A DNA stretch of 64,000 nucleotides from Flavobacteriales bacterium (GTDB taxonomy: Bacteria > Bacteroidota > Bacteroidia > Flavobacteriales_C > GCA-002722245), in the NCBI GenBank assembly GCA_023251095.1, contig JAHEZL010000016.1, forward strand, positions 46,605-110,604, written 5' to 3'. The notes below the pieces were generated by a model. The model did not search any database. It saw only the letters and a list, made by a program, of their open reading frames with translations, and was not told the origin of the DNA. Below, one piece after another: positions 10,756 through 62,787 of the stretch. The position numbers and the translations under genes were made by a program. Positions within the stretch are counted from its first letter, which is position 1; every line of letters begins with the position of its first letter.

Positions 10756-10910
10756 AATCCCTCTGCCTGCGCACAGAATTCCTTCGCACCTCCCTTTTTC
10801 AAAGGGAGAAGCCCATTCCCTGAAAACCATTATTTAAGTATGGATGAGAGCGCACTTCTCCCTTTGAAAAAGGGAGGTGCGAAGGAATTCTGTGCGCAGG
10901 CAGAGGGATT
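10756..10910. repeat. Long nested inverted repeat, family 2
   Basis: Two perfectly matching 56-nt arms (10756–10811 and 10855–10910) flank a 43-nt spacer. Each arm also holds a small hairpin, CTCCCTTT–TTC–AAAGGGAG. The right arm ends on the first base of the aacS stop codon. There is no T-run, and the element lies next to a separate complete terminator, so it does not look like an ordinary terminator. The architecture matches the other nested repeats in this window although the sequence does not. Confidence 0.9.
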
Positions 10911-12820
10911 TATTTCTTCCCTCTCACAAACCCCAAAAAAAACTTCAAACTCTCGGGATTTTTCATTGCATCCTTTGTTGCTGCTTTTTCAATTGGTGTC
11001 CCCATCAGTATTTTCTTCATGGGAGTTTCCATTTTTTTACCACTGATGGTATATGGAATTTCAGCAACCTGAAATATTTCATCAGGCACATGACGCGGAG
11101 AATATTGCTTGCGCAACTCCGCTTTTATTTTTGCTTTCAAAGCGTCATCCAAAATAAAACCTTCGCGAAGCACCACAAACAAAGGCATGTAATGCTCTCC
11201 TCCTTCTTCATCGGTGCAAATAACCATGCTGTCTTTTATTTCGGCAACACTTTCCACTGCGCTATAAACTTCACTGGTACCAATGCGCACACCACCGCGG
11301 TTGAGTGTTGCGTCGGAGCGACCGAAAATAATGACTGAATTCCGGGAAGTGATTTTTATCCAATCACCATGTCGCCATTTCCCCGGATACATTTCAAAAT
11401 AACTGGAATGGTATTTTTCATTTCCTTTATCGTTCCAAAAATAAACAGGCATGGAAGGCAGCGCTTCTTCAATCACCATTTCGCCAAGTTCATCATAAAC
11501 GGGTTTTCCCTGTTCATTGTAAGCTTCCACTTTACAACCCAGCAAACGACATTGTATTTCACCTGCATAAACAGGTTCATAAGGATTTCCGCCCACAAAG
11601 CCACTGCAAATATCGGTTCCTCCGCTAAGCGAAATCAACCACAAATCTTTTTTTATGTTTTTGTAAATCCAGTCGAAAGCCTCCGGAGGCAAAGGAGACC
11701 CGGTACTTCCCAAGGATTGAATATGATTCAGTTTTCCTTCATAGTTCACACCTTCTTTCATGCAGGAAATGTAAAAACTTGCTCCTGCTCCGAAATGCGT
11801 GATTTTTGTTTTTTCTGCCAGATCCCACAACACATTAATATTGGGATAAGCAGGCGCACCATCGTAAATCACCACTGTGGTTCCGTGCAACAAAGCCGCG
11901 TTGGCATAATTCCACATCATCCATCCTGTGGTGGAATACCAGAAAAAACGATCTCCTTTTTTGCAGTTTTGATGCAAACCCATTGCTTTCAAATGCTCTA
12001 TCAGCATTCCTCCCACACTGTGTGTAATTGCCTTGGGTTTACCGGTAGTTCCCGAGGAATATAAAATCCAGATGGGATCACTGAAATCAACTCTCGTGAA
12101 TTCGAGAGTTGCGCTTTTGTTGTTCATTATATTGGTCCACTCGGCACTGCCAACAATCAGTAATTTTTTTAATCCTTTTAAATGATCCGCCAATTCAGCA
12201 ACGGTTTCATTTTTTGAAAACTGCTTGCCATTGTATGAATAGCTGTCGCAGGCTATTAATATTTTTGGTTCAATCTGACTCAACCTGTCGATAACACTCG
12301 CTGTTCCAAAATCGGGAGAACAGCTCGACCACACCGCGCCCAATGAATTAGCGGCTAAAAATGCAATCAGTGCTTCAGGATTATTGGGTAAATACGCAGC
12401 GATGCGATCGCCTTTGCCGATTCCTTCCGCCTTAAAATACGCCGCCAGAGCAGCCACTTTTTCTTCCAGTTCCTGCCACGAAATTTCTGTTGCAGTTTGC
12501 GTTTCCGACTGGAATATGATGGCTGGATATTCACTCGCTTTATTTCTGAAAACATGTTCGGCGTAATTTACTTTCGTTCCTTCAAACCATTTGGCTCCTA
12601 TCATTTCAGGTGTTTGCAACAATACTTTTTGATAAGATCCATCGTGTAATACCTCATAATATTGCCAGATGGATTCCCAGAATTGAGAAATATTATTCAC
12701 CGACCAATCCCACAATTCCGCGTAATTATTCAAGTCCAGATTTTTCTCACGCTTCAGATACTGCGCGTAAGCAAACATATTGGAAGATTCGGTGAATTGT
12801 TTTGATGGTTGCCACAACAT
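10910..12820 (-). CDS. aacS: Acetoacetyl-CoA synthetase
   Basis: 636 aa, an ANL-superfamily acyl-CoA synthetase. The ATP/AMP-binding P-loop is YSSGTTGKPKAI (about residues 253–264). The segment ISLSGGTDICSGFVGG is characteristic of acetoacetyl-CoA synthetases and differs from acetyl-CoA synthetases. The C-terminal lid domain carries RGGVRIGTSEVY and a late Lys in SGKKMETP, the usual acetylation-sensitive catalytic lysine. It activates acetoacetate with ATP and CoA in the cytoplasm, feeding ketone bodies or PHB breakdown products into acetyl-CoA. It is transcribed alone, convergent with bglX and divergent from ribD. Confidence 0.92.
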   Translation of the reverse strand: MLWQPSKQFTESSNMFAYAQYLKREKNLDLNNYAELWDWSVNNISQFWESIWQYYEVLHDGSYQKVLLQTPEMIGAKWFEGTKVNYAEHVFRNKASEYPAIIFQSETQTATEISWQELEEKVAALAAYFKAEGIGKGDRIAAYLPNNPEALIAFLAANSLGAVWSSCSPDFGTASVIDRLSQIEPKILIACDSYSYNGKQFSKNETVAELADHLKGLKKLLIVGSAEWTNIMNNKSATLEFTRVDFSDPIWILYSSGTTGKPKAITHSVGGMLIEHLKAMGLHQNCKKGDRFFWYSTTGWMMWNYANAALLHGTTVVIYDGAPAYPNINVLWDLAEKTKITHFGAGASFYISCMKEGVNYEGKLNHIQSLGSTGSPLPPEAFDWIYKNIKKDLWLISLSGGTDICSGFVGGNPYEPVYAGEIQCRLLGCKVEAYNEQGKPVYDELGEMVIEEALPSMPVYFWNDKGNEKYHSSYFEMYPGKWRHGDWIKITSRNSVIIFGRSDATLNRGGVRIGTSEVYSAVESVAEIKDSMVICTDEEGGEHYMPLFVVLREGFILDDALKAKIKAELRKQYSPRHVPDEIFQVAEIPYTISGKKMETPMKKILMGTPIEKAATKDAMKNPESLKFFLGFVRGKK

Positions 12821-21350: not shown

Positions 21351-21449
21351 TTAACCCACCCCTAACCCCTCCAAGGAGGGGAATACGTCCATTTTCAGGA
21401 AATACCCGCTAACTGATTCCCCTCCTTGGAGGGGTTAGGGGTGGGTTAA
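21351..21449. repeat. Long nested inverted repeat, family 3
   Basis: Two perfectly matching 34-nt arms (21351–21384 and 21416–21449) flank a 31-nt spacer. Each arm contains a short hairpin, CCCCTCC–AA–GGAGGGG. The right arm ends 9 nt from the stop codon of the upstream lipoprotein gene. No T-run is present. Confidence 0.9.
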
Positions 21450-30376: not shown

Positions 30377-31604
30377 TCTTATAATTTAAACAAGTGCAAT
30401 TTTCTTTTCTTATAATTTGTTTGGCCACTCTCAACACATCGGCGGTAGTGACCTTAGTGAATTTATCCTGCTGTTCATTCACCAAAGCAGCGTCGCCCAG
30501 CATTTCAAAAAAGGCCACGCTCATGGCTTTGTTCAGCACATTCATTTCGGAATACACCAAAGATGTTTCCGATTTGTGCACCACTTTTTGCAATTCATTT
30601 TCGGTAATTCCGGTGGCCAGAATTTTATCCATTTCTTTTTCCAGTTCTTGTTTTGCGTGATCCATATCCACGTCATCCGACAACATCGCGTGAACAATAA
30701 ATAAACCCGGATCAACACTGCCGGTAAGGTAAGCGCTCAACTCGGTGAACAAAGGATTTTCCTTCACCAGCTTGAGATACAGGCGTGACGACATTCCTCT
30801 CGCCAGTACATCCGACAGTAAATCGGCGGCATAATAATCGTCGTGATTTCTTTGCTTCATCGGGTAAACCTGATAGAAACTGCGCACGGGAACTTTCAGG
30901 TCCGAATCAATTTCGCGGAATTCATTTTGCGCAGGTTCCTGCAAATAATTTGTTCTTTTTATTTCAGCAGAAGGAATGGCTGCAAAATATTTTTCGGCCA
31001 TTGCAAAAACCACTTCTTCTTCTACATCACCTGTAAATACAAGCACTGCGTTGTTGGGCAAATAATATCTGTAAAAAAAATCTTTCACATCCTGCAATTG
31101 CGCCATTTCAATGTGCTCAATTTTTTCACCTATCGTGGCCCAGCGGTAAGGATGAACTTTATAAATTACCGGACGCAGTTTCAGCCATGCATCACCGTAA
31201 GGCTGATTTAAATAGCGTTGTTTAAACTCTTCAATCACCACATTTTTCTGGGTATCCAAACTCTTTTGTGTGAAAGCCAAACCCTTCATTCTGTCGGCCT
31301 CTAACCAAAAAGCCACTTCCATATTGTCCTTCGGAAAAGTGACATAGTAGTTGGTGTAATCATTGGTGGTAAAGGCATTGCTTTCTCCTCCCATGTTTTG
31401 CACCACTGCATCAAACTCGGGAATGGCAGGAGTTCCGCCAAACATCAAATGTTCGAACAAATGCGCAAAGCCTGTCATTTTAGGATCTTCATCCCGCGCC
31501 CCTACTTTGTATAAAATATTGAGTGCCGCCATTGGAGTAGAAGTATCGCGGTGTGCAATTACCTTCAATCCGTTAGCTAAAGTTTTTTGTTTGTAGTTAA
31601 TCAT
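30369..31604 (-). CDS. M16-family zinc peptidase, active subunit
   Basis: 411 aa. The inverted zinc motif HLFEH (48–52) followed by MFGGT and a downstream Glu-rich helix VVIEEFKQR (third ligand) are intact. Residues about 170–400 form the second M16 domain. No signal peptide is visible. It forms an operon with the inactive subunit (8-nt overlap) and with the nitronate-monooxygenase-like gene upstream (4-nt overlap at 31601–31604). M16B enzymes degrade peptides or mature precursors inside a closed chamber; the substrate is unknown. Confidence 0.93.
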   Translation of the reverse strand: MINYKQKTLANGLKVIAHRDTSTPMAALNILYKVGARDEDPKMTGFAHLFEHLMFGGTPAIPEFDAVVQNMGGESNAFTTNDYTNYYVTFPKDNMEVAFWLEADRMKGLAFTQKSLDTQKNVVIEEFKQRYLNQPYGDAWLKLRPVIYKVHPYRWATIGEKIEHIEMAQLQDVKDFFYRYYLPNNAVLVFTGDVEEEVVFAMAEKYFAAIPSAEIKRTNYLQEPAQNEFREIDSDLKVPVRSFYQVYPMKQRNHDDYYAADLLSDVLARGMSSRLYLKLVKENPLFTELSAYLTGSVDPGLFIVHAMLSDDVDMDHAKQELEKEMDKILATGITENELQKVVHKSETSLVYSEMNVLNKAMSVAFFEMLGDAALVNEQQDKFTKVTTADVLRVAKQIIRKENCTCLNYKNV

Positions 31605-32542
31605 AGTCCCTTTAATTTCTTAACCCCCTCTTGAAATTCATTCATTATCTCGTGTACAATTTCTGCAGCCGGTTTTATTTCTTTTATCAATCCGGAAACT
31701 TGTCCGATTTCTAATTCTCCTTCTTCCAAATCCCCTTCAAACATTCCTTTTTTTGCTCTACCTCTTCCCAGTACTATTTTTAATTCTTCGGCAGATGCGC
31801 AGTTTTTTTGTGCCGTGTCCACCTGAGAGAAAAATTTGTTTTTTATCAATCGTACCGGAGTCAACTCCTTTAAGGTAAGCAAAGTTTCTCCTTCTCCGCT
31901 TTCAATTATTTTGTTTTTAAAATTTTTATGAGCTGAGGATTCTTCCGAAGCAACAAATCTGCTTCCTACCTGAACACCTTCGGCACCAAGGGCAAAAACA
32001 GCCAACATGGCTTTTCCGCCGGAAATTCCTCCTGCTGCAATTACCGGAATATTTACCGCTTCTACCACTTGCGGAATCAAACACAAAGTAGTGGTTTCTT
32101 CGCGACCGTTGTGTCCGCCTGCTTCAAAGCCTTCGGCCACAACAGCATCTACTCCTGCCTCCTGAGATTTTAAAGCAAACTTTGCGCTCGATACAACGTG
32201 CACTACTTTTATGCCATGCTGCTTTAAAAAAGGCGTCCATATTTTAGGATTTCCCGCACTGGTAAAAACAATTTTCACTCCGCCTTCCACAATGATATTC
32301 ATCAGTTGCTGAATATCGGGATACAACAAAGGCACATTCACCGCGAAAGGTTTATCCGTTGCTGCTTTGCATTTTTCAATGTGTTCTTTTAAAATTTCGG
32401 GATACATGGATCCGGCACCGATAATGCCCAATCCGCCGGCGTTACTTACTGCCGAGGCCAAACGCCAGCCACTACACCACACCATTCCCGCTTGAATGAT
32501 AGGATGTTCAATTCCGAATATTTCTGTTACCCTTGTTTTCAT
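31601..32542 (-). CDS. FMN-dependent nitronate monooxygenase-like enzyme
   Basis: 313 aa TIM-barrel flavoprotein of the 2-nitropropane dioxygenase/NMO family. N-terminal PIIQAGMVW, the EAGGHNG segment (140–146) with the likely catalytic His144, and the FMN-phosphate site AAGGISGG are present. The same family includes FabK-type enoyl-ACP reductases and other flavin reductases, so the exact reaction is uncertain. It has no signal peptide. The stop overlaps the start of the active M16 peptidase gene by 4 nt. A nested repeat lies upstream. Confidence 0.85.
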   Translation of the reverse strand: MKTRVTEIFGIEHPIIQAGMVWCSGWRLASAVSNAGGLGIIGAGSMYPEILKEHIEKCKAATDKPFAVNVPLLYPDIQQLMNIIVEGGVKIVFTSAGNPKIWTPFLKQHGIKVVHVVSSAKFALKSQEAGVDAVVAEGFEAGGHNGREETTTLCLIPQVVEAVNIPVIAAGGISGGKAMLAVFALGAEGVQVGSRFVASEESSAHKNFKNKIIESGEGETLLTLKELTPVRLIKNKFFSQVDTAQKNCASAEELKIVLGRGRAKKGMFEGDLEEGELEIGQVSGLIKEIKPAAEIVHEIMNEFQEGVKKLKGL

Positions 32543-32622
32543 ATAGGATGGACAACATAATTACGGATTTTTTGGGATAAGGACAATTTAAAATTACACT
32601 ATAATCTAGCTTGATCCCAGCT

Positions 32623-32770
32623 CGTCATTGCTCTCTACGTCATTGCGAAATTTTTGTACTCAAAAATGAAGCAACCTCATCAAACCCTCTATTCTGAAAA
32701 ATAAAAAACACAATGAGGTTGCTTCATTTTTGAGTACAAAAATTTCGCAATGACGTAGAGAGTAATGACG
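32623..32770. repeat. Long nested inverted repeat, family 1, copy A
   Basis: Arms of 58 nt (32623–32680 and 32713–32770) match at 57 of 58 positions around a 32-nt spacer. Each arm contains CGTCATTG twice and an inner hairpin TTGC-gaa-ATTTTTG-tact-CAAAAAT-gaa-GCAA. The right arm ends 18 nt after the stop of the NAD(P)HX repair gene. The arm skeleton (GTCATTGC…GAAGCAA) resembles a REP-like element I recall from other Bacteroidota. Confidence 0.92.
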
Positions 32771-32788
32771 TTGTTGAGGTGAAGTTAA

Positions 32789-34270
32789 TTACGAAATTTT
32801 CAAAAACGCTTTCCCTACATTCTTCACGATATCACCAGCCACCATAGCCTCCTGAGAATTTTCTTCCGCAGCTATATCTCCCGCTAATCCATGTAGGTAA
32901 ACACCCAAACGCGCAGCATCCAGAGAATGATAGCCCTGGGCAAGCAAGCCTGTGATAATACCCGTAAGCACATCACCCGATCCTCCCTTGGCCATTCCCG
33001 GATTTCCGGTAGTATTGAAATAACATTTTCCTTCTTCAGAGCAAACAATAGTATGTGCGCCTTTCAAAACAGTAATCACATAATTTTCTTTACAAAAGAG
33101 TTTTAGTTTTTCCAGCGCTTCAAAACTATTGGAAAAAGATCCCACTAATCTTTCAAACTCTCCGGGATGAGGCGTTAATACTGTATTTGCAGGCAACAAA
33201 GTTAAAAACTCAGTATTCATTGCCAGAATATTCAAAGCATCGGCATCGAGCACCATAGGATATTTTATTTCCTCCATCAGTTGCTGAACAGCAGCAACGG
33301 TAAGGTCATTGGTGCCTAAACCCGGACCGATTCCTGCTGCCGCGAAATTATCAAAGTCGTTTACTTCTTCCACCAGATAATGATCGCCGGCTCTTACCGC
33401 CATTGCTTCGGGAACAGAAGATTGAATAACGGTTAATCCTCTTGCGGGAACAGCAGATGTTACCAATCCCGATCCTGATCGCACACAGGCCGAAGCAGCC
33501 AAAACAGCAGCGCCCATTTTCCCTTCTGAACCGGCCACAATTAAAGCATGTCCGTAAGTTCCTTTGTGTGCAAATTTTTCTCTCTTTTTATAAATTTTTT
33601 GAATGTCTTCTAATTCAGTAGTGAAATTTTCGTTGGCGAAAGTGGCGATGAAATTGGCATTCAAGCCAATCGGAAGAATTTTTACTGTACCCACATAAGC
33701 TGCGCTTTCCTTAAAGAAAAAACTCAGTTTCGGTCGCTCGAAAGTCAGAGTATAATCCGCTTTAACAATTGCTCCTTCGGATAAACTATCACAATACAAT
33801 CCCGATGGAAGATCAATGGACACAACAGTATTATCGGCTTCATTGATTTTATTGATGGCCAAAATCCATTCTCCTTCTAATTTTCTATTCAGGCCCGAAC
33901 CGAACAATCCGTCGATGATAATTGCTTCCGGGAGCAGATGAAATTTATCGGCGCTAGTACACTCATCAACAGAGGAAAGTTTAGCTAAATTAATTTTGAA
34001 ATCTTCCGATGCTTCTCCGCCAAAGCGCAGCACATCTACCTGTACTTTATAACCATCAGCCAAAAGCAAACGCGCCAATGCCAAAGCATCGCCGCCATTG
34101 TTGCCCAAACCGGAAACAATCTGAAAAGTCTTGTCTTTGGAAAAAAGAGCTGTTACTTCTTTTTTCAAAGCTTCAGCAGCAGTTTCCATCAAATCTACCG
34201 AAGCAATTTTTTTCTTCGTGATGGTGTATAGATCCGCATCTTTAATTTGTTGAGCCGATAGAATTTCCAT
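32789..34270 (-). CDS. nnrD: Bifunctional NAD(P)HX epimerase / dehydratase
   Basis: 493 aa, the fused form of the two repair enzymes. The N-terminal epimerase domain (about 1–215) has GNNGGD (56–61) and a conserved Asp in IIDGLFGSGL. The C-terminal ADP-dependent dehydratase domain (about 225–493) has GTYGHALIVAGS, the TPHPGEFERL segment and NPGMAKGGSGDVLTG (about 423–437), the nucleotide-binding signature. Together they repair NADH or NADPH damaged by hydration. The gene overlaps coaE by 29 nt, so the two are cotranscribed. Confidence 0.95.
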   Translation of the reverse strand: MEILSAQQIKDADLYTITKKKIASVDLMETAAEALKKEVTALFSKDKTFQIVSGLGNNGGDALALARLLLADGYKVQVDVLRFGGEASEDFKINLAKLSSVDECTSADKFHLLPEAIIIDGLFGSGLNRKLEGEWILAINKINEADNTVVSIDLPSGLYCDSLSEGAIVKADYTLTFERPKLSFFFKESAAYVGTVKILPIGLNANFIATFANENFTTELEDIQKIYKKREKFAHKGTYGHALIVAGSEGKMGAAVLAASACVRSGSGLVTSAVPARGLTVIQSSVPEAMAVRAGDHYLVEEVNDFDNFAAAGIGPGLGTNDLTVAAVQQLMEEIKYPMVLDADALNILAMNTEFLTLLPANTVLTPHPGEFERLVGSFSNSFEALEKLKLFCKENYVITVLKGAHTIVCSEEGKCYFNTTGNPGMAKGGSGDVLTGIITGLLAQGYHSLDAARLGVYLHGLAGDIAAEENSQEAMVAGDIVKNVGKAFLKIS

Positions 34271-34865
34271 ATATTTTTTCTATTTGATGATGTATCTCTA
34301 ATACTTGAGGGATAAGCATTTTCTGAGCATCGTTGTGAATGACGAAAGTAGCAAATTTTATTTTTTCTTCGGGCGCCATCTGATTGGCAATGCGCTGTTT
34401 CACTTGTTCTGCCGAAACAGCATCTCTTTGTATAACCCTTGCTATGGCTACACTTTCGGGAGCAACAACCATAATTATTTTATCGCAGTTTTTATAGCTT
34501 CCGCTTTCAATTAAAATGGCGGCTTCCTTGATTACATAAGGAACATCGTGTTGCTGAGAAAACCATTGTAGGTAATCCAGGGCCACTAAAGGATGTAAAA
34601 TTGCATTGAGTTTTTTCAATTCATCGGCTTGTGAAAACACCATGCCGGCCAAAGCTTTTTTATCAATTTTGCCTGTCGCATCCAACACCGCTCCACCCCA
34701 CTCCTTCACTATTTTTTCTTTTACCGACGGATTGTTTTGCAAAATAAATTTCGATCTGTCGTCGGCGTAATACACCGGAACACCCAAGGTTTCAAACATT
34801 TTGGCAACAGTAGATTTTCCGCTGCCGATGCCTCCTGTAAGTCCTATTTGAAGTGTTTTTTTCAT
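34242..34865 (-). CDS. coaE: Dephospho-CoA kinase
   Basis: 207 aa, the normal length. P-loop GGIGSGKST (11–19), Asp in YYADDRSK, and the lid/Arg region (ARVIQRDAVSAEQVKQRI) are all present. It phosphorylates dephospho-CoA in the last step of coenzyme A synthesis. The upstream 70 bp contain the block shared with ribD (34863–34911), and the ATG coincides with the CAAATGAAA end of that block. It overlaps the NAD(P)HX repair gene by 29 nt and follows ybbR on the same strand. Confidence 0.96.
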   Translation of the reverse strand: MKKTLQIGLTGGIGSGKSTVAKMFETLGVPVYYADDRSKFILQNNPSVKEKIVKEWGGAVLDATGKIDKKALAGMVFSQADELKKLNAILHPLVALDYLQWFSQQHDVPYVIKEAAILIESGSYKNCDKIIMVVAPESVAIARVIQRDAVSAEQVKQRIANQMAPEEKIKFATFVIHNDAQKMLIPQVLEIHHQIEKIYGNSIGSTN

Positions 34866-34911
34866 TTGGACATATTTTTCTTTTTAATGTCAAATGGAAT
34901 ATTCATTATCG
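34863..34911 (-). promoter_or_regulatory. Conserved upstream block shared with ribD
   Basis: Positions 34889–34911 are the exact reverse complement of 12874–12896. The A/T-rich spacer and the end CAAATGAAA also align with one base of length difference. Here the last ATG is the coaE start codon; at ribD the equivalent ATG is followed at once by a stop and the real start is 26 nt further on. Confidence 0.5.
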
Positions 34912-34935
34912 GTTGTATTTGCTTTTTAGAATATT

Positions 34936-35916: not shown

Positions 35917-35953
35917 AAAAAAAACGAAGCAGTGGTAAAAATACCACTGCTTC
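35917..35953 (-). terminator. Terminator abutting the ybbR start codon
   Basis: On the minus strand a perfect 12-bp stem (GAAGCAGTGGTA / TACCACTGCTTC, positions 35926–35953) with a 4-nt loop is followed by G and eight T (35917–35924). The T-run touches the ybbR ATG. It ends the yajC transcript or acts as an attenuator for ybbR–coaE. Confidence 0.85.
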
Positions 35954-35977
35954 TCAATAAGTCAAAAAAAACTCAGC

Positions 35978-36295
35978 TTATTTTGGTTGATTCGCCATTT
36001 GCGAATTAGCATCCATTGAAATAGCCGATTTTTCGAATTTTATTTTAGCACCGCTTTCTACAGTTACCACTATTGTAGAACCATCCACTTTAGCTACTGT
36101 TCCGTATGCTCCGCCGATAGTAACAATTTGATCACCTTCTTTGATGTTCTCTCTGAATGCTTTCAGAGCTTTTTGTTTTTTCTGTTGCGGACGGATCATG
36201 AAAAAATACATTACCACGAAAATACCACCGAACATAATTAAGGTGGTCCAACCTGAACCTCCGCCTGCTGCTTGTAACAAATACATATTCATCAT
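35978..36295 (-). CDS. yajC: YajC, Sec translocase accessory protein
   Basis: 105 aa. A Gly-rich N-terminus (AAGGGSGW) and one membrane helix (about 17–34) are followed by the YajC signature FFMIRPQQKKQKA and a small basic cytoplasmic domain (EGDQIVTIGGAYGTVAKVD). YajC associates with SecDF at the inner membrane. The start could be Met1 or Met3; both are within three codons. It lies 15 nt after the DUF1573 lipoprotein gene and ends before a strong terminator. Confidence 0.95.
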   Translation of the reverse strand: MMNMYLLQAAGGGSGWTTLIMFGGIFVVMYFFMIRPQQKKQKALKAFRENIKEGDQIVTIGGAYGTVAKVDGSTIVVTVESGAKIKFEKSAISMDANSQMANQPK

Positions 36296-36310
36296 TTAAA
36301 TTTTAATTGT

Positions 36311-36763: not shown

Positions 36764-36795
36764 AGCTTAAAAATTTTGTACAAAAATATAAAAGT

Positions 36796-37743: not shown

Positions 37744-37816
37744 AGTAAAGACCGTTATGTTAAAATTTAAAAGCGCAAATTGTTTTTATCCGCAGCAAAT
37801 ATATAAAAACAAATCC

Positions 37817-38809: not shown

Positions 38810-38910
38810 GACACAAGTTGCTTAAATAAATTATCCCCTTGAAGTAAACCTACGCGATTCTTTTTAAATCGCAAAAACAAAATGATTAATTCAATACCTT
38901 TGGCCCAGCA

Positions 38911-40731
38911 ATGAAAAGCCTTTTTTATCTCAATAAATTTATCTTGAAATACAAATTCAAGATGTTTTGGGGAGTAGTGTTTATAGCACTTTCCAACTGG
39001 CTGAGTATTTTTCCTGCACAAATTTTCCGCAACGTGATTGATGTGGTGATGGAATCGGTGGATCTGCTGAACAACTTTAAAAACACAAAGTTTGACGAAG
39101 CCATCAAGGATTTGTTTATCACTTCGGCCCTGTGGTTTGGTGTGGGACTCTTCATCTTCGCCATTGCCCGCGGGGTTTTTGTGTTTTTCATGCGCCAAAC
39201 CATCATTATGGTGTCGCGCTACATTGAATACGATTTGAAAAATGAAATTTACAATCAGTACCAAAAACTGGATGTATCGTTTTATAAAAACAACAACACC
39301 GGCGACATCATGAACCGCATCAGCGAAGATGTGACAAATGTGAGGATGTACCTCGGTCCGGCGATTATGTACACCATCAACCTCATCATTTTATTTATCC
39401 TCGTGATTTTCACGATGGTGAACATCAATTTTGAATTATCGATGTATGTGCTCTTTCCCTTACCGCTGCTCTCTGTTTTAATTTATTTTGTGAGCCGAAG
39501 GATGACCCGATTGAGTGGAGATGTACAAAGTCAGCTCTCCACCATTTACAACAAAACTCAGGAAACCTTCTCGGGAGTAAGAGTGGTGAAAGCTTACACC
39601 AAAGAAAAACAAACCGTTGAGCAGTTCAATGCCGAAGCCGATTTATACAAAGACAAAGCACTGAAACTGGCTCTGGCCGATTCGATGTTCAGTCCGCTCA
39701 TATTTTTATTGCCTGTTTTAAGCACAGTGATCACCGTATTTGTAGGCGGTATGGAAGTAATCAACGGAACCATCTCTTACGGAAATATTGCCGAATTTGT
39801 AATTTACATCAACTTGCTCACGTGGCCCGTAGCCTCTTTAGGATGGGTGACTTCACTCACGCAAAAAGCCATTGCATCACAACGCCGCATCAACCAGTTT
39901 TTACATACCGAATCAAAAATCGTCAATCCCAACAATGATCCATTTTCTATTAAAGGAGAAGTGGAATTCAGAAACGTGAGTTTTACTTATCCTGAATCTG
40001 GAATCAAGGCTTTGGTGAATTTATCTTTTAAAATTTCTTTGCAATCTTCATTGGCTGTTATTGGCAAAACCGGCTCGGGAAAATCCACCATTGCCATGCT
40101 CATCAACCGCATGTATGATCCCGATTCGGGAGATATATTTATTGACGGTGTGAACATCAAAAACATCAATTTGAATGAACTGCGCAAACAAACCGGTATG
40201 GTGCCGCAGGAAGTATTTTTATTCAGCGACAGCATTGAAGGAAATATTGCTTTTGGTTCTTTTTCGGGCGGAGAATTAAGTGATTCAGAAAGAGCATTGG
40301 TGATAGAAGCCGCAAAAAAAGCAGCTATTCACGATAACATCTGCACTTTTCCCAATCAGTACAAAACCATAGTTGGGGAAAGAGGAATTACTTTAAGTGG
40401 CGGACAAAAACAAAGACTTTCCATCGCCAGAGCCTTATTGAAAAACCCTAAAATACTGGTGTTGGATGATTGTTTAAGTGCTGTAGACACGGAAACAGAA
40501 GAAGCTATTCTCAACAGTTTAAAAAGTGAAACACAGGGAAAAAGCGCTTTGATTATCAGTCACAGAGTATCTTCCATCAAAAACTGCAACAACATTATTG
40601 TACTCGATCATGGCGCCATTGCCGAGCAAGGTCATCACGAGCAATTGATGGCCAATAAGGGATTGTACTATGAACTCTACCAAAAACAACTTAGAGAAGA
40701 AAACAAAGGCATGAATAATTTGTCTAAATGA
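38911..40731 (+). CDS. ABC exporter, fused permease and ATPase
   Basis: 606 aa. Six membrane helices in the first 330 residues, then a nucleotide-binding domain with Walker A GKTGSGKST (385–393), Q-loop VPQEVFLFS, signature LSGGQ (495–499), Walker B LVLDDCLSAVD (516–526) and H-loop ISHRVSS. The catalytic Glu after Walker B is Asp520, as in the degenerate half of heterodimeric exporters; no partner gene adjoins it. Family members export lipids or drugs from the inner membrane. TACCTTTG lies at 38895–38902, very close to the start, so a leaderless or alternative promoter is possible. Confidence 0.92.
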   Translation: MKSLFYLNKFILKYKFKMFWGVVFIALSNWLSIFPAQIFRNVIDVVMESVDLLNNFKNTKFDEAIKDLFITSALWFGVGLFIFAIARGVFVFFMRQTIIMVSRYIEYDLKNEIYNQYQKLDVSFYKNNNTGDIMNRISEDVTNVRMYLGPAIMYTINLIILFILVIFTMVNINFELSMYVLFPLPLLSVLIYFVSRRMTRLSGDVQSQLSTIYNKTQETFSGVRVVKAYTKEKQTVEQFNAEADLYKDKALKLALADSMFSPLIFLLPVLSTVITVFVGGMEVINGTISYGNIAEFVIYINLLTWPVASLGWVTSLTQKAIASQRRINQFLHTESKIVNPNNDPFSIKGEVEFRNVSFTYPESGIKALVNLSFKISLQSSLAVIGKTGSGKSTIAMLINRMYDPDSGDIFIDGVNIKNINLNELRKQTGMVPQEVFLFSDSIEGNIAFGSFSGGELSDSERALVIEAAKKAAIHDNICTFPNQYKTIVGERGITLSGGQKQRLSIARALLKNPKILVLDDCLSAVDTETEEAILNSLKSETQGKSALIISHRVSSIKNCNNIIVLDHGAIAEQGHHEQLMANKGLYYELYQKQLREENKGMNNLSK

Positions 40732-40808
40732 AAAAAATGTTTTTAATTTAGTTTATTAATCATTAATTTGGTTGGGAAACGAAAGTTTAATTTAAAAACT
40801 AGTGTGAA

Positions 40809-41183
40809 ATGGAAAACAAATCAGGTGAAAGAATGGAAGACAGAGAGGAAATTTTCTCAAAGTCGGTAAGAGCAGGGAAAAGAACTTACTTTTTTGATGT
40901 GAAAGCAACAAAAGGTAACGACTACTACCTTACAGTTACCGAAAGCAAAAAGAAATTTAGTGAAGATGGAAAATTCTTCTTTGAAAAACACAAGTTATTC
41001 CTTTACAAAGAAGACTTTGAAAAATTCGCTGCAGGTTTGAAAGAAGCAGTTGATTTCATTCAGGCTGAAAAAGGAGTTTACGAAGCTCCTGTAGAAAACA
41101 ACTACAAAGAAGAACTGGAAGGCGTATTGAACGAAGGTTCTGAATATTCGGAAGTAAGTTTTGACGATTTAGGTTCAAAATAA
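40809..41183 (+). CDS. DUF3276 / PUR-like nucleic acid-binding protein
   Basis: 124 aa. The pattern of short beta strands and basic/aromatic residues (KRTYFFDVKATKGNDYYLTV, then FFFEKHKLFLYKEDFEKFAAGL) matches the single PUR domain proteins of Bacteroidota and Borrelia, which bind single-stranded DNA or RNA as dimers. An acidic C-terminal tail (about 95–124) follows. It is a short, probably abundant cytoplasmic protein. The gene has its own terminator (41203–41232) and lies 77 nt downstream of the ABC exporter. Confidence 0.9.
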   Translation: MENKSGERMEDREEIFSKSVRAGKRTYFFDVKATKGNDYYLTVTESKKKFSEDGKFFFEKHKLFLYKEDFEKFAAGLKEAVDFIQAEKGVYEAPVENNYKEELEGVLNEGSEYSEVSFDDLGSK

Positions 41184-41202
41184 TCAAGAAAATAAACAGA
41201 TG

Positions 41203-41232
41203 AAAAATCCCGGCCAAGTGTCGGGATTTTTT
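41203..41232 (+). terminator. Terminator between the PUR gene and cdaA
   Basis: A perfect 10-bp stem, AAAAATCCCG / CGGGATTTTT, with a 9-nt loop is followed by T residues. It ends 19 nt before the cdaA ATG, leaving little room for a separate cdaA promoter downstream of it. Confidence 0.88.
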
Positions 41233-41251
41233 GTTTTTCTTTGTAACACAA

Positions 41252-42031
41252 ATGACAACTCAACTCCTCTTCCTACAATTCCGCTTCATTGATGCCCTCG
41301 ACATCCTGCTCGTGGCCATTCTGTTTTATCAGTTGTACAAAATTGTAAAAGGAACAGCGGCCATCAATATTTTTATCGGAGTGCTGGCCATTTACCTTTT
41401 GTGGGAGCTGGTGGACGCCATGCAGATGAAGCAGCTCAGTAAAATCATCGGACAGTTCATCAACGTTGGAGTAATTGTTTTGGTAGTAGTATTTCAGCAG
41501 GAAATAAGAAAGTTTTTGATTTATCTGGGCACCAAAAGTTTTTCGGGAAGAACAGTATTGTTCAACCGACTCATGAAAACACCCGAAAGCGAAACAAAGG
41601 AAGTGCGCCCTATCATTCAGGCTGCATACAATTTAGCAAAAACCAAAACAGGTGCGCTGATTGTGCTGGCCAATCAAAGTGATTTAAGTTTTTACGAAAG
41701 TACAGGTGATAAAATCGACGCCGCTTTGAGTTCGCGCTTGATAGAAAACATCTTCTTTAAAAACTCTCCCCTGCACGACGGAGCGCTGATCATTGAAGGA
41801 AATATAATTAAAGCAGCCCGTTGTGTATTGCCTGTTACCGAACAGGATGACCTGCCTGCTCATTACGGAATGCGCCATCGCGCTGCCATAGGAATTACCG
41901 AATCTTCGGATTGTTTAGCCATTTCAGTTTCAGAAGAAACAGGAAAAATTTCTTTGGCCAAAGGCGGAAAGATTTTTTCTGATTTAAGCAGAGAAGATAT
42001 GGAGAAATTGATGGATGAGTTTTATAAGTAA
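41252..42031 (+). CDS. cdaA: Diadenylate cyclase CdaA
   Basis: 259 aa from ATG 41252; a TTG at 41231 lies inside the terminator and is unlikely. Three N-terminal membrane helices (about 13–30, 36–53 and 71–88) are followed by the DisA_N catalytic domain with DGA (176–178) and RHR (208–210), both needed to make cyclic di-AMP from two ATP. The segment FQQEIRKFL joins membrane and catalytic parts as in other CdaA enzymes. The neighbouring folP and cdaR genes seen in other phyla are absent; a YbbR protein is encoded at 34936–35916. Confidence 0.95.
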   Translation: MTTQLLFLQFRFIDALDILLVAILFYQLYKIVKGTAAINIFIGVLAIYLLWELVDAMQMKQLSKIIGQFINVGVIVLVVVFQQEIRKFLIYLGTKSFSGRTVLFNRLMKTPESETKEVRPIIQAAYNLAKTKTGALIVLANQSDLSFYESTGDKIDAALSSRLIENIFFKNSPLHDGALIIEGNIIKAARCVLPVTEQDDLPAHYGMRHRAAIGITESSDCLAISVSEETGKISLAKGGKIFSDLSREDMEKLMDEFYK

Positions 42032-42047
42032 GGAGCTGAAAATCATG

Positions 42048-42181
42048 CTCTACGTCATTGCGAAATTTTTGTACTCAAAAATGAAGCAACCTCATTACAA
42101 CTTTTTTTTGTTTTTATATTGATGAATAGTATGATGAGGTTGCTTCATTTTTGAGTACAAAAATTTCGCAATGACGTAGAG
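42048..42181. repeat. Long nested inverted repeat, family 1, copy B
   Basis: Two perfectly matching 48-nt arms (42048–42095 and 42134–42181) flank a 38-nt spacer. The arm is the same sequence as in copy A but lacks the outer CGTCATTG. It begins 16 nt after the cdaA stop, between convergent cdaA and pgm. Confidence 0.92.
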
Positions 42182-42238
42182 GGGGAACAAACGTATTACT
42201 AAAGGATGACGCGCCAAGTGAATGGCACCGAGAACTTG

Positions 42239-43879
42239 TTAAGATACCGCATCCGTCACTATCGTTTGCGCTTCTTTTTGAATCCAACGCAAATGACTTT
42301 CACCTTTAAAACTCTCGGCGTAAATTTTATAAATGTTTTCGGTGCCTGATGGTCGTGCGGCAAACCAACCATTTTCCGTGACTACTTTCAATCCGCCTAA
42401 ATCGGCATTGTTTCCGGGAGCTTTGGTGAGCATCGCCGTTATTTTCTCTCCGGCGAGTTCAGTAAATATGATTTGTTCGGGAGATAATTTTGCTAATTTT
42501 TCTTTTTGCTCGGGAGTAGCTGCAGCATCAATTCTATCGTAAATGGGTGCACCAAATTCTTTGGTCAATGCGAGATAATGTTCACCCGGATCTTTGCCGG
42601 TACGCGCAGTAATTTCTGCCGATAACAAAGCTGGGATCAATCCGTCTTTATCGGTAGTCCACACTCCCCCATCTTTTCGTAAAAAGGAAGCGCCTGCACT
42701 TTCTTCACCCACAAAACCAAGAGATCCGTCGGTCAAGCCATCTACAAACCATTTGAAACCCACAGGTACTTCATACACCTTGCGACCGATTTTAGCGGCC
42801 ACTCTATCAATCATATTTGAACTCACTAAGGTTTTACCGATGTTAGCCGATTGGCCCCATCCTGAGCGATTTTGAAAGAGGTAATTGATGCATACCGCCA
42901 AATAATGGTTGGGCTGCATGAGTCCGCTGCTTTTGGTCACAATGCCATGTCTGTCGTGATCGGTATCACAACCAAAAGAAATATCAAAGTTGTCTTTCAT
43001 GGCAATGAGCCCCTGCATCGCATAAGAAGAGGAAGGGTCCATACGGATTTTTCCATCCCAATCCAGCGTCATGAAACGAAAAGTGGGATCAACCACTTCA
43101 TTCACCACCGTAAGATTTAAACGGTAATTATCGGCAATAGCACCCCAGTAATCCACTCCTGCACCACCCATAGGATCAACACCCATGGCTATTTTTGAAT
43201 CGCGTAAAATATCAAAATCAATAACGTTTGCGAGATCATTTACATAATTGGCAATGTAATCGTAACGATGTGTAGTGGCTGCTTTCAATGCCCTTTCATA
43301 AGGAATGCGCAACACGCCTTTCAAATCGTTTTCTAAAAACTCATTGGCTTTTTTTTCAATCCACGAAGTAATATCGGAGCCTGCAGGTCCGCCATGCGGA
43401 GGATTGTATTTGAATCCGCCGTCATCGGGCGGGTTGTGTGAAGGCGTAATAACAATGCCATCGGCCAAGCCATCTTTGCGACCTTTGTTGTACATCAGTA
43501 TCGCTTGGGAAACCGCAGGAGTTGGCGTGTATTCATCATTTTTTGAAATCATGATTTGCATGCCGTTGGCAGCCATCACCTCTACCGTTGTTGCGAAAGC
43601 CGGTGTAGACAAGGCATGTGTATCAATGCCAATAAAAGTAGGACCTTCTATTTTTTCTTTTTGGCGATACAAACAAACCGCCTGACAAATGGCGAGAATA
43701 TGTTTTTCGTTGAAACTGTTTTTTAAGGAAGAACCTCTGTGGCCCGATGTACCGAAGGACACACGGTGTTCACGAATAGAAGGATCGGGAACATTGGAAT
43801 AATAAGCACTGATCAGTCGGGGAATGTTCGCCAGTTTATCAAGTGCCGGAAGTTGGCCTGCATTGGGATGGATACTCAT
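42239..43879 (-). CDS. pgm: Phosphoglucomutase, alpha-D-glucose-phosphate specific
   Basis: 546 aa, the normal length for the Pgm type. The phosphoserine loop is TPSHNPPDDGG with Ser147, the Mg site is CDTDHDRHG (about 304–312), the sugar-binding loop GEESAGASF, and the phosphate-binding loop RPSGTENIYKIY near the C-terminus. It interconverts glucose-1-phosphate and glucose-6-phosphate. It lies 260 bp downstream of, and on the same strand as, the glycogen cluster, with nested repeat copy C between them. Its product, glucose-1-phosphate, is the substrate of the next gene's nucleotidyltransferase family. Confidence 0.95.
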   Translation of the reverse strand: MSIHPNAGQLPALDKLANIPRLISAYYSNVPDPSIREHRVSFGTSGHRGSSLKNSFNEKHILAICQAVCLYRQKEKIEGPTFIGIDTHALSTPAFATTVEVMAANGMQIMISKNDEYTPTPAVSQAILMYNKGRKDGLADGIVITPSHNPPDDGGFKYNPPHGGPAGSDITSWIEKKANEFLENDLKGVLRIPYERALKAATTHRYDYIANYVNDLANVIDFDILRDSKIAMGVDPMGGAGVDYWGAIADNYRLNLTVVNEVVDPTFRFMTLDWDGKIRMDPSSSYAMQGLIAMKDNFDISFGCDTDHDRHGIVTKSSGLMQPNHYLAVCINYLFQNRSGWGQSANIGKTLVSSNMIDRVAAKIGRKVYEVPVGFKWFVDGLTDGSLGFVGEESAGASFLRKDGGVWTTDKDGLIPALLSAEITARTGKDPGEHYLALTKEFGAPIYDRIDAAATPEQKEKLAKLSPEQIIFTELAGEKITAMLTKAPGNNADLGGLKVVTENGWFAARPSGTENIYKIYAESFKGESHLRWIQKEAQTIVTDAVS

Positions 43880-43940
43880 TTTATTTCTATTTTATAATAG
43901 ATGCTTCATTACGATAAATGCAAGATAAAGTTATGAGGAT

Positions 43941-44125
43941 CGTCATTGCCCTCTACGTCATTGCGAAATTTTTGTACTCAAAAATGAAGCAAACTCATTA
44001 TACTCTTTTTAATTTCAAATTACTTAACCTATATGAGTTTGCTTCATTTTTGAGTGCAAAAATTTCGCAATGACGTAGAGAGCAATCACGAACTGGGGGG
44101 AATGACGTAGAAAGCAATGACGAGG
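43941..44125. repeat. Long nested inverted repeat, family 1, copy C
   Basis: Arms of 58 nt (43941–43998 and 44033–44090) match at 55 of 58 positions around a 34-nt spacer, followed by an extra outer unit (GACGTAGAAAGCAATGACG, 44104–44122). Relative to copies A and B, the spacer-proximal end reads GCAAACTCAT / ATGAGTTTGC instead of GCAACCTCAT / ATGAGGTTGC, so both arms changed together and the pairing is kept. Confidence 0.92.
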
Positions 44126-44139
44126 CTAAAAAATCCGAC

Positions 44140-45153
44140 TTATATCTTCACCACACTAAAATCTCCCAAACTTGCTCCCTGAGAATTCCCTGAAAACTCA
44201 ACGTTATTTCCCAACATGGAATTGGAAAGTACTGCTTTTTTCACAATGGAATTAGACTGTACCATAGTATTCACTACAATTGAATTTTCTATACAGGTAT
44301 TGTCGCCGATAGAAGCGTAAGGACCAACTGTAGAGTTGACAATTTTTACGTTTTCACCAACAAAACAAGGCTGAACTATTTTTGAGTTAACGAGCTCCAC
44401 TCTCGGATTGGTAGCAGAACCATCGTTATAATACATTTCCAATATGCGTTTATTGGTAGCAACGGTAGCATCTTTGTTACCGCAATCCAACCATTCGGCA
44501 ACACGGGAAGTAAAAAGCTTAGCGCCTTTTTTCTTCATGTTTTCCAAAGCGGTAGTCAATTGAAATTCTCCTTTTTCACGGAGATTATTGTCAATGAGAT
44601 ATTGCATTTCATCTCTGAGGAAAGCACCGTCTCTGAAATAATAAATACCAATGATGGCAAGGTCGGAAACAAAGGTTGGAGATTTCTCCACGAAATCGGT
44701 AATGCAACCTTCTTCATTTAATTTCACCACACCGAACTGACGCGGATCTTCCACTTTTTGAACCCAGATGATACCATCTTTTGCAGTATCTATTTTAATA
44801 CTGGTATCGGGAATGAAAAGCGTATCGGCAAAAACGATTAATAATTTTTCATTTAAAGATTCCTTTGCACACAACAATGCGTGAGCAATTCCATGTGCTT
44901 CTTCCTGATAATATATTTTACCAACAGCGCCGAGTTTTTTAGCCACATCCAACAAACCTTTCTCAGCCACTTCACCGAAGTGACCAACAATGAAAGCGAT
45001 TTCAGTGATTTTTTCCGGACTCATTTTCGCCAGGTCTTCAGCAATGCGCTGAACCATCGGTTTACCTGCCACAGGAATCAAAGGCTTTGGAGTTGTAAGG
45101 GTATGCGGACGCATGCGCTTTCCCATACCTGCCATTGGAATAATAATCTTCAT
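44140..45153 (-). CDS. Sugar-1-phosphate nucleotidyltransferase
   Basis: 337 aa. The N-terminal Rossmann-like domain starts MKIIIPMAGMGKRMRPHT with the PKPLIPVAGKPM segment, which bind the nucleotide and sugar phosphate; an Asp in IVFADTLF is the likely metal ligand. A left-handed beta-helix follows (about 245–337), with hexapeptide-like runs such as NTCIENSIVVNTMVQSNSIV. By family it could make ADP-, UDP- or dTDP-glucose. Its place downstream of three glycogen enzymes favours supply of the glucosyl donor, but the nucleotide specificity is not readable from the sequence. It lies 25 nt after the GH57 gene. Confidence 0.88.
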   Translation of the reverse strand: MKIIIPMAGMGKRMRPHTLTTPKPLIPVAGKPMVQRIAEDLAKMSPEKITEIAFIVGHFGEVAEKGLLDVAKKLGAVGKIYYQEEAHGIAHALLCAKESLNEKLLIVFADTLFIPDTSIKIDTAKDGIIWVQKVEDPRQFGVVKLNEEGCITDFVEKSPTFVSDLAIIGIYYFRDGAFLRDEMQYLIDNNLREKGEFQLTTALENMKKKGAKLFTSRVAEWLDCGNKDATVATNKRILEMYYNDGSATNPRVELVNSKIVQPCFVGENVKIVNSTVGPYASIGDNTCIENSIVVNTMVQSNSIVKKAVLSNSMLGNNVEFSGNSQGASLGDFSVVKI

Positions 45154-45178
45154 CTTGCTCTTTACTAAAAGTTAGTTA

Positions 45179-46627
45179 TTACTTTTTTTTCTTTGCTGCT
45201 TTTGTTGGCTTTGCCTTAGTTTTTGCAACAACTTTTGCTTTAGGAGCAGCTTTAGGCTTTGCTTTAACAACAGTTTTTGCTTTAACTACCACTTTCGCTT
45301 TAGGCTTTACTGTTTTTTTCGCAGGTTTTGCCTTTGCTTTAACCAGTACTACTTTGGCTTTTGGTGTTGATTTTACTGCCACTTTAGCTTTAACCGCTTC
45401 TTTTACTTTAGCAGAAGCTTTTGGTTTAGCATCTAAAGCAGCTACATGCTTATTCACCCTTTCTTCAAAGTCGGTGAGCACATTCATGTAATTGATGAAA
45501 GCCTCGTAAGGAGTGTTGTAGTGATTGAAATATTTGTGCACGTCTCCATCAGAGAAGAACTTGGTACACATATAATAGAAATGATCACTTGTTTGCAAAT
45601 ACAACCAATCTCTTTGAAGGTCGGCATCTTTAATTCTTTTTACTTTTTCTTCCAGACGGTAAAGGCTATCGAAAGCATCATCCTGAATATGATTTCCCAA
45701 CCATGCAGATAAATCTCTTTCTAAATCGGCCCAGGAAATAGGATTATCAATACTTAATGAACCTCTTACCTGTAATTGATCAGCTGCTTCGGACGGCGTA
45801 CAAAATTTAAATTCCGAACGTTCCAACACCAGTCGCGGCAAGTGATACATGAAATCGAAAATACCGGTTTCATGCCATTGGTGCTCACCGAAAGTTTCAT
45901 AGTCCATAAACAAATTCACAATTTCTTCTGTCCATGAAATTGAATTCAGCCAATCCACGTATTTATCGGCAGTAAGCGGCCACGCATCCCATGACGACTG
46001 AGAAAAACGGAAAGCGATATCATCACTTAACTTATAATTTTTCAATAAAAGTTTCAGTTCAGGAACATGCTCGTTCTGATACATATAGTTCGGAGATCTC
46101 CAATCCAAAACTTTATCGGCACCTTCGGTAACCATTGTTTTATAACCCATTTGATTCACCATCCATCCGATGTGGTTGGAATAAATCAACTCTGTATTTC
46201 TGAACACTTTCGGTTTTTGTCCGAACAATTGCTCTATTTTTTTTGCCTGACGTTCAACTTGTTTTTTAAATTCTTCCGGACTTTTCAAAGCCGATAAGGA
46301 GTGGGCATAGGTTTCAGCCAGAAACTCCACACAACCTGTATCTGCTAATCTTTTGAAGCTATCCAAAACATCCTGCGCATACATTTCAAACTGATCCATT
46401 GCAGTTCCTGAAATAGAGAAACTCACTTTGAACTCGCCTTTGTACTGATGAATTAAATCCAAAAGGAGTTGATTCATCGGTAAATAACATTTATCAGCTA
46501 CTTTACGCATGATGCGTCTGTTCGCCTCTTCATCAAAGTAGTTGTGGTCTTTGCTGATATCAAAAAAGCGATAGGTTTTCAACCTCATCGGCTGATGTAC
46601 CTGAAAGTAAAAACATATTTTCTTCAT
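45179..46627 (-). CDS. GH57 alpha-glucan hydrolase/transferase with Lys-rich tail
   Basis: 482 aa. The GH57 domain (1–400) has FYFQVHQPMRL at the start, nucleophile Glu146 in RNTELIY and the acid/base Asp242 in FMDYETFGEH. No signal peptide is present, so it acts on cytoplasmic glycogen. Residues about 400–482 form a tail made almost only of Lys, Ala, Val, Pro and Thr (repeats such as KAKPKAAPKAK, ending KAAKKKK), like histone H1 tails. That tail is not part of the GH57 fold. Gene spacing to the glycosyltransferase is 3 nt. GH57 enzymes include amylases, 4-alpha-glucanotransferases and branching enzymes; which one this is remains open. Confidence 0.92.
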   Translation of the reverse strand: MKKICFYFQVHQPMRLKTYRFFDISKDHNYFDEEANRRIMRKVADKCYLPMNQLLLDLIHQYKGEFKVSFSISGTAMDQFEMYAQDVLDSFKRLADTGCVEFLAETYAHSLSALKSPEEFKKQVERQAKKIEQLFGQKPKVFRNTELIYSNHIGWMVNQMGYKTMVTEGADKVLDWRSPNYMYQNEHVPELKLLLKNYKLSDDIAFRFSQSSWDAWPLTADKYVDWLNSISWTEEIVNLFMDYETFGEHQWHETGIFDFMYHLPRLVLERSEFKFCTPSEAADQLQVRGSLSIDNPISWADLERDLSAWLGNHIQDDAFDSLYRLEEKVKRIKDADLQRDWLYLQTSDHFYYMCTKFFSDGDVHKYFNHYNTPYEAFINYMNVLTDFEERVNKHVAALDAKPKASAKVKEAVKAKVAVKSTPKAKVVLVKAKAKPAKKTVKPKAKVVVKAKTVVKAKPKAAPKAKVVAKTKAKPTKAAKKKK

Positions 46628-62733: not shown

Positions 62734-62787
62734 CACTCCGTCATTGCTTTAATTTTTGAGTACAAAAATTTTCGCAATGACGGGTGT
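62734..62787. repeat. Family 1 element, copy D, single symmetrical hairpin
   Basis: One arm only: CCGTCATTGC at 62738–62747 pairs with GCAATGACGG at 62774–62783, enclosing AATTTTTG-AGTA-CAAAAATT. Outer bases (ACAC / GTGT with one T·G) extend the stem to 62734–62787. It starts at the base after the upstream stop codon. It has lost the second inverted arm seen in copies A to C. Confidence 0.85.

Follow-up and report, generated by a model that had tools for sequence, protein, structure and literature searches.

CGTC-tagged REP-like dimers in a Flavobacteriales genome and their association with genes encoding small GIY-YIG nucleases

Palindromic elements in the window

The DNA analyzed in this study (hereafter the window) comprises 64 kb of contig C3 (G000:C3:46605-110604; GenBank JAHEZL010000016.1) of the 3,587,702-base, 43-contig draft genome of a Flavobacteriales bacterium (GCA_023251095.1). 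It carries six palindromic elements of three families, which resemble repetitive extragenic palindromic (REP) sequences and lie beside genes encoding acetoacetate-CoA ligase (aacS), NAD(P)H-hydrate dehydratase (nnrD), CdaA, phosphoglucomutase (pgm), and a nucleotidyltransferase-like protein; a type IX secretion system (T9SS) type B sorting domain was also detected, which, together with the named relatives of the GIY-YIG protein described below, points to Bacteroidota. Here, we describe these elements, their copies elsewhere in the genome, and the genes for small nucleases, above all of the GIY-YIG type, that are enclosed by arms of the same kind.

10755..10911, no strand assigned: family-1 dimer; arms 10755-10811 and 10855-10911 (57 nt, 100% complementary), spacer 10812-10854 (43 nt); the right arm overlaps the aacS stop codon
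21351..21449, no strand assigned: family-2 dimer; arms 21351-21384 and 21416-21449 (34 nt, 100% complementary), spacer 21385-21415 (31 nt)
32623..32770, no strand assigned: family-3 dimer past nnrD; arms 32623-32680 and 32713-32770 (58 nt, 98% complementary), spacer 32 nt; CGTC-tagged units head to head
42048..42181, no strand assigned: family-3 dimer separating the stop codons of cdaA and pgm; arms 42048-42095 and 42134-42181 (48 nt, 100% complementary), spacer 38 nt; congener G003 lacks it in the orthologous gap
43940..44132, no strand assigned: family-3 dimer in the gap between pgm and the nucleotidyltransferase gene; arms 43940-43998 and 44033-44091 (59 nt, 95% complementary), spacer 34 nt, outer partial repeat 44101-44132; absent from the G003 gap
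62734..62787, minus strand: single hairpin of the family-3 type directly after the stop codon at 62733; the hairpin itself spans 62738-62783, with 21-nt arms (86%)

All six palindromes named in a preliminary description of this DNA are present, five as two-arm elements with arms that are 95-100% complementary and the sixth as one hairpin. Perfect inverted arms of 34-57 nt within 64 kb make a chance origin impossible. That description had also proposed that each arm is itself a hairpin, and when a single arm from each of the three families was folded by itself, a hairpin did form in all three cases. The division into three unrelated families holds for the arm sequences but not entirely for the spacers, as those of families 1 and 2 have motifs in common. 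Five elements lie 0-18 nt from a stop codon, within the 0-20 nt originally given, but the fifth lies 48 nt away (44091 to 44140) and comes to within 7 nt of its stop codon only if the outer partial repeat, ending at 44132, is counted. A terminator scan of positions 32500-44200 listed no site at the three elements located there, in agreement with the earlier view that ordinary termination does not explain them, and ordinary terminators were rejected for these three. No Rfam family reached its cut-off anywhere in the window, and a known RNA family was rejected as the identity of the elements.

Copies in the genome and unit architecture

Searches of the whole genome with the three arm sequences revealed dispersed, multi-copy families. 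The family-3 core, CGTCATTGCGAAATTTTTG, gave 95 matches with at most two mismatches (46 forward and 49 reverse), and the cores of families 1 and 2 gave 29 (15 + 14) and eight (4 + 4) matches, respectively, with at most three mismatches; the reversed control patterns gave no genome match for any of the three cores. The palindromes are genuine and far above chance expectation. Family-3 units start with CGTC and end with CTCAT, and a bulge divides their stem into 4 bp on the outside and 7 bp on the inside. Across the window plus 60 further stretches (core with at most three mismatches), 30 close head-to-head pairs of family-3 units were found together with 36 unpaired units, several of which have a diverged second arm, so that the two-arm design is common but not universal. 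The spacers of family 1 recur in both orientations, and those of family 2 are partly conserved.

At C20:212125-212895 (locus L094, 2626-3396), two inverted family-3 arms also enclose a 223-aa open reading frame (ORF), which has no significant Pfam match (best E 0.08) and represents either cargo or a chance bracket.

GIY-YIG genes between REP arms

At C28:113095-113518 (424 nt from core to core), two inverted family-3 arms, identical over 46 nt, enclose a gene encoding a 97-aa GIY-YIG protein (56.5 bits). It is the sole standalone GIY-YIG gene of the genome; the other GIY-YIG match, within a 599-aa frame, we read as UvrC. In an alignment of 11 GIY-YIG sequences, Y8, Y19, R29, H33, and E67 are invariant, and residues of this kind are the catalytic ones of the GIY-YIG fold.

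To describe the flanks of such genes, an arm score was defined as the best inverted repeat between the upstream and downstream flanks, and displaced positions, UvrC genes, ORFs of the window, and other ORFs served as nulls, flank pairs from different loci having been dropped because the loci overlap and share families. Within the genus, arms scoring at least 17 flank 10 of 15 standalone GIY-YIG genes (five genomes), those below this value being L155, L156, L161, L169, and L171. None of five UvrC-size genes with a GIY-YIG domain reached 17 (scores 9-12), and 44 of 45 ORFs in the window scored 13 or less, the exception, at 17 or more, being pgm, which sits between two complete dimers. In the class, a relative of the GIY-YIG gene is present in 163 of 295 genomes, and arms scoring at least 17 were found at 23 of 70 loci compared with 0 of 135 displaced positions, or at 19 of 63 when the genus loci L289-L291 and the misplaced contig-end loci L294, L296, L310, and L316 were left out, as they were in the two tests on 63 class loci described next. 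A third set, the best 80 of 570 loci from named genomes, nearly all of them Alphaproteobacteria by title, yielded such arms at 59 of 80 loci, typically CGTCATGGCCGGGCTTGTCCCGGCCATCCACG.

Two further tests took the orientation of the tag into account. The strict one used a hairpin-checked CGTC detector and demanded, on each flank, a tag facing outward no more than 200 nt away. Once three loci with short flanks had been removed from the mostly alphaproteobacterial set, it found 52 of 77 genes bracketed and none of 148 displaced positions, whereas inward tags on both sides occurred at 4 of 77. When a perfect 8-bp stem was required, the result was 41/77 versus 0/148. On equally called ORFs, 28 of 72 GIY-YIG genes were bracketed compared with 2 of 355 other ORFs and 0 of 108 small ones; with no slack at the start, the counts were 16/72 and 0/355. 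The second, simpler test looked for [CT]GTCAT pointing outward on both sides within 250 nt and was positive for 30 of 63 class loci (1/123 displaced), 55 of 77 mostly alphaproteobacterial loci (5/148 displaced), and 4 of 14 genus loci (0/26 displaced; one of the 15 loci was left out). It was negative for UvrC (0/5), DUF559 (0/12, out of 13 genus loci), and genes of the family of REP-associated tyrosine transposases (RAYTs; 0/14). Applied to called ORFs, it gave 27/58 versus 4/105 in the class and 29/72 versus 25/349 in the mostly alphaproteobacterial set. GIY-YIG genes thus lie between outward-tagged REPs more often than other genes do.

A motif resembling CTAACTAACTAA, or its reverse complement, recurs ahead of GIY-YIG starts (leaders of L160, L164, and L154) and also in family-2 spacers (L066, L068, and the window), and contains stop codons in more than one frame. 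At L156, in congener G003, a GIY-YIG gene that has no REP arms comes directly after a tRNA-like sequence and has a tRNA-like partial copy behind it.

Gene-bearing copies, gene-free dimers, and a comparison of arms with nucleases

The order of gene and arms in Rhodopseudomonas faecalis (L236) reads REP-CCACGTCTT-13 nt-gene-TGA-AGACGTGG-REP; R. palustris (L241) is alike on the left side and partly masked on the right. Elsewhere in the 80 loci, seven gene-free dimers have the form REP-spacer-REP, some with the CCACGTCTT extension, and the GIY-YIG gene of L236 occupies the position that the spacer has in them. In eight such genomes, the REP unit had 65-107 matches in six, six in one, and none in one. 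A firm claim that the spacers of the window genome are clear remnants of the gene leader was given up: 13 of 30 spacers resembled the leader at p≤0.01 only when arm ends were included, and the resemblance is weak without them.

Arm type follows nuclease type within the genus. Arms of the CGTC-TTGC type flank the gene of the window genome (L158) and those of L160, L164, and L172, whose proteins are 64-76% identical to the former, while five genus nucleases with 35-53% identity have other arms. Nuclease and arm similarity were correlated in the genus (Mantel r 0.45, n=9; 73 of 5000 permutations reached this value) and in the genus and class together (r 0.30, 0/5000, n=28), the latter value being confounded by relatedness. 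Rows with low arm score had been removed (0 of 10 for the genus, 44 of 73 for genus and class, and 29 of 80 for the mostly alphaproteobacterial set), as had rows containing a stop (one, one, and four, respectively).

DUF559 genes and families 1 and 2

A second type of small nuclease gene, DUF559, was found beside other arms. In the genus, 10 of 13 DUF559 matches have arms scoring at least 18, two of these loci overlapping, and one match lies within a 1061-aa frame. Arms resembling family 1 flank the DUF559 gene of the window genome (C27:70037-70360) and turn their AGGGATTT end toward it; a dimer with a family-1/2 spacer precedes the locus. In family-1 dimers, the spacer borders the opposite end of the arm, so that simple loss of the gene from the gene-bearing copy does not account for them. 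Among the 13 genus DUF559 loci, three match family 1; family 2 is linked to DUF559 by form only (GGAGGGGCTAGGGGTGG at L432 compared with GGAGGGGTTAGGGGTGG in the window genome). Of 24 standalone DUF559 genes from the wider class, five scored at least 17, compared with 0 of 46 displaced positions; this set consisted of 20 regions hand-picked among short-frame matches and five added loci, with L403 skipped and with L405 and L419 omitted because they duplicate L425 and L427. The part of the case concerning DUF559 and families 1 and 2 is the weaker one.

In many class genomes the DUF559 domain occurs inside open frames of about 600-1900 aa, and so in many cases belongs to a large protein or else is read through.

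Proposed spread by small nucleases and the passenger alternative

The association of the nuclease genes with the arms is a direct observation, and mobilization by the nucleases is what we infer from it. In our assessment, the REP-like dimers are likely spread by small nucleases (probability roughly 0.58), family 3 by a GIY-YIG enzyme and family 1, possibly also family 2, by a DUF559 enzyme, and not by a RAYT. In single-stranded DNA, the two arms would pair to form one long hairpin; the GIY-YIG nuclease would then recognize the REP and cut at or near the tag, after which the unit, either with the gene or as a short gene-free dimer, would be copied to a new place and host repair would complete the copy. 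Copies past gene ends would survive because neither genes nor promoters are broken there.

Several results weigh against this explanation. GIY-YIG enzymes are hydrolytic nucleases that are not known to carry out strand transfer, so that the joining step must come from elsewhere. In the class, the strict test was positive for only 6 of 63 loci (0/123 displaced) and, on called ORFs, for 6 of 58 versus 2 of 114 other ORFs, the detector being weak there because the stems are bulged. Inward tags on both sides were also raised (17/63 in the class and 18/77 in the mostly alphaproteobacterial set), and the layout is lacking in 25 of 77 (strict test), 33 of 63 (class, tag test), and 5 of 15 (genus) cases. 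With arm ends excluded, the spacers resemble the GIY-YIG leader in 4-5 of 30 cases at p≤0.01 (five by base shuffles and four by dinucleotide shuffle) and in 9 of 30 at 0.05. The correlation between nuclease and arm is nil in the mostly alphaproteobacterial set (r 0.08, 1290/5000, n=47), family 2 matches beside none of the 13 genus DUF559 genes, the 223-aa ORF of L094 also lies between family-3 arms and significantly resembles no Pfam family, and a single GIY-YIG gene for 95 unit matches makes recent activity uncertain.

The last two of these points also favor the main alternative, namely that the GIY-YIG gene is a passenger homing into REP dimers, whose hairpin would be its target, and that the REPs owe their spread to a different enzyme or survive as relics. 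GIY-YIG homing nucleases invade target sites, many dimers are gene-free, and some GIY-YIG genes are armless. However, the outward bracket of the strict test surrounds 52 of 77 genes compared with 0 of 148 displaced positions, no other mobilizer was found beside CGTC arms (RAYT 0/14 and DUF559 0/12), and arm type follows nuclease type in the genus (Mantel r 0.45). We regard the passenger explanation as unlikely, though it is the strongest of the alternatives.

Extending the proposal of spread by nucleases, CGTC REPs may have a dedicated mobilizer, the small GIY-YIG enzyme, and three nucleases with no relation to one another, namely Y1 RAYT, GIY-YIG, and DUF559, may each have become the center of a REP system with separate arm families, all coexisting in a single genus; we put this forward tentatively, at somewhat less than even odds.

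Placement at gene ends, empty sites, and a possible role in RNA

Sixty-six family-3 sites comprise 30 in convergent gaps, 26 in tandem gaps, three in divergent gaps, one inside an ORF, and six that could not be classified, so that 56 of 59 classified gap sites are convergent or tandem. Element-free gaps of at least 20 nt in the same stretches divide into 11 convergent, 64 tandem, and 29 divergent (convergent versus the rest, Fisher p 3e-8). When part of the copies of the other families (six family-1 and two family-2 sites) was included, a facing stop codon lay within 50 nt at 52 of 67 classifiable sites. Facing stops (100 in total) have a median distance of 18.5 nt, with 51 within 20 nt, and the 34 facing starts have a median of 54 nt, with nine within 20 nt, start positions being rough because genes were called with a simple ORF rule. 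The placement at gene 3' ends noted for the window is thus a strong tendency genome-wide but not a rule.

Window positions 31000-46000 were compared with four congeners, of which G003 provided the evidence for empty sites, the others having no readable gap at these places. The stop codons of cdaA and pgm lie immediately next to each other in G003 (TAA, CTA) but are 207 nt apart in the window genome, the dimer included, and the G003 gap between pgm and the nucleotidyltransferase gene is 8 nt compared with about 210 nt. No target-site duplication was seen at these two empty sites, where the G003 gaps have diverged and the exact ends are unreadable; at the nnrD site, the G003 contigs end in another repeat. 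The designation of the elements as REP-like, or similar to bacterial interspersed mosaic elements, in the preliminary description is well borne out: they are multi-copy palindromic units, often head-to-head dimers, intergenic, near stop codons, and in two cases absent from the gaps of a congener.

The orientation toward gene ends (30/26/3 versus 11/64/29 convergent, tandem, and divergent), the long, near-perfect stems, and the outer 15 nt, which match better inside an element than from one element to another (0.518 versus 0.419; a value reached by 2 of 2000 permutations), could also reflect selection for RNA 3'-end structures, either stabilizers or two-way terminators, with mobility being secondary. 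The 37-nt arm core, however, is conserved as sequence and shows no covariation (0.978 within and 0.977 between elements). Compensatory change was rejected as evidence proving a selected structure, there being none in the core and a weak excess in the outer part. Moreover, two window elements are absent from orthologous gaps, the window has no Rfam match, and the same placement is expected if only harmless insertions survive. We consider selection as RNA structures improbable as the main explanation.

RAYT-like genes

A RAYT had been proposed as the partner of the elements. The search for a TnpA_REP/Y1 gene in the window genome did reveal one RAYT-like ORF, truncated at a contig end (NF047646, 68.7 bits versus a cut-off of 80), and one IS200-like gene. 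RAYT-like genes occur in all five genus genomes examined, and inverted arms scoring at least 17, but of another sequence, flank 11 of the 20 tested; among the 22 RAYT-family matches, 20 were arm-scored (all but L203 and L204), 14 were tag-tested, and 21 were matched against the arms. Over whole loci, the arm beside the RAYT-like ORF of the window genome matches 6 of 21 RAYT loci, family 3 matches one of 21, and families 1 and 2 match none. Although the dimer layout fits that of REP doublets forming hairpins (REPINs) and RAYT-like genes are present throughout the genus genomes, spread of the dimers by a RAYT is the least probable explanation and was rejected, given the truncated ORF, the lack of an outward [CT]GTCAT bracket around any of 14 RAYT or IS200-like genes, the different arm sequences, and the presence of GIY-YIG and DUF559 genes, rather than RAYT genes, between family-3 and family-1 arms.

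The broken RAYT-like gene of L032 contains, at about 1523-1536, GCGAAATTTTTGTA, which is also found in the family-3 arm, possibly by chance in AT-rich sequence.

Comparison with known repeat systems

CGTC-tagged REPs, for which TGTC or CCTC variants of the tag are allowed, are described as having an 8-9 bp stem beginning with AT, a 4-5 nt loop, and an unpaired 3-nt tail, mostly CCA; they usually face each other head to head in pairs separated by 20-100 nt, lie mostly past the ends of genes, and occur in five phyla, Bacteroidetes among them, with carriers such as Rickettsia and Wolbachia, and Rickettsia RPE-4/-6 and Neisseria dRS3 are counted among them (Di Nocera et al., 2013; PMC3733652). Family 3 shares with them the CGTC tag, the palindrome, the head-to-head dimers, and the intergenic place near stop codons. 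In contrast, its bulged stem and CTCAT tail differ, for which reason we do not file it under CGTC-1 to CGTC-4, the four families named. The arms of the mostly alphaproteobacterial set do fit the stem and loop of CGTC REPs, and the CCA tail is present there. Judged by these features, family 3 is a CGTC-tagged REP-like dimer that probably works like CGTC REPs. Its arms also enclose a GIY-YIG gene, whereas the survey reports no transposase dedicated to CGTC REPs (Di Nocera et al., 2013; PMC3733652).

REPINs are likewise short multi-copy elements of two inverted REPs, with a gene-bearing copy as the supposed helper, but they have a GTAG tag and a Y1 tyrosine transposase in place of CGTC and GIY-YIG (or, in family 1, DUF559). 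Miniature inverted-repeat transposable elements are similar in that short non-coding copies with inverted ends accompany a rarer gene-bearing copy with the same ends. Here, in contrast, there is no classical transposase, and the spacer shows but a weak relationship to the copy that bears the gene; no target duplication was visible at the two sites compared, where the G003 gaps have diverged. The PF01541 domain and the small, possibly selfish nuclease gene are shared with GIY-YIG homing endonucleases, but in the present case the gene is not in an intron, as far as seen, and lies between REP arms that also exist in many gene-free copies.

The elements are REP-like dimers, ordinary in kind, that point to the partner reported missing by the survey. 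Among the top matches in open-licence PMC articles, preprints excluded, no publication joining GIY-YIG or DUF559 nucleases to REPs was found, and the terms sought are absent from the available text of a paper on the GIY-YIG superfamily (PMC1564403). How CGTC REPs arise and spread was left open in the 2013 survey, and a candidate partner enzyme makes this question directly testable. If the proposal is true, REP-like systems are not bound to HUH (histidine-hydrophobe-histidine) chemistry, and a role would be found for many small genes of the GIY-YIG and DUF559 types whose sole annotation at present is 'putative endonuclease'.

Possible other insertions near family-3 units

In the window genome, AATATTTGCAAATTAACACA adjoins family-3 units at the tag (GTTCATTGCG) near contig ends (L096, L104, L107, L125, L126, and L131), and at L096 it adjoins the diverged second arm of the unit; judging from the sequence, these junctions look as though an insertion sequence targets one REP position. 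The gap past nnrD (32600-32790; L367, L371, and L380) holds a family-3 dimer in the window genome and arms of a DUF559-type repeat at the G003 contig ends, and in G004 it may contain an insertion sequence near a contig end; this gap is perhaps a recurrent insertion site.

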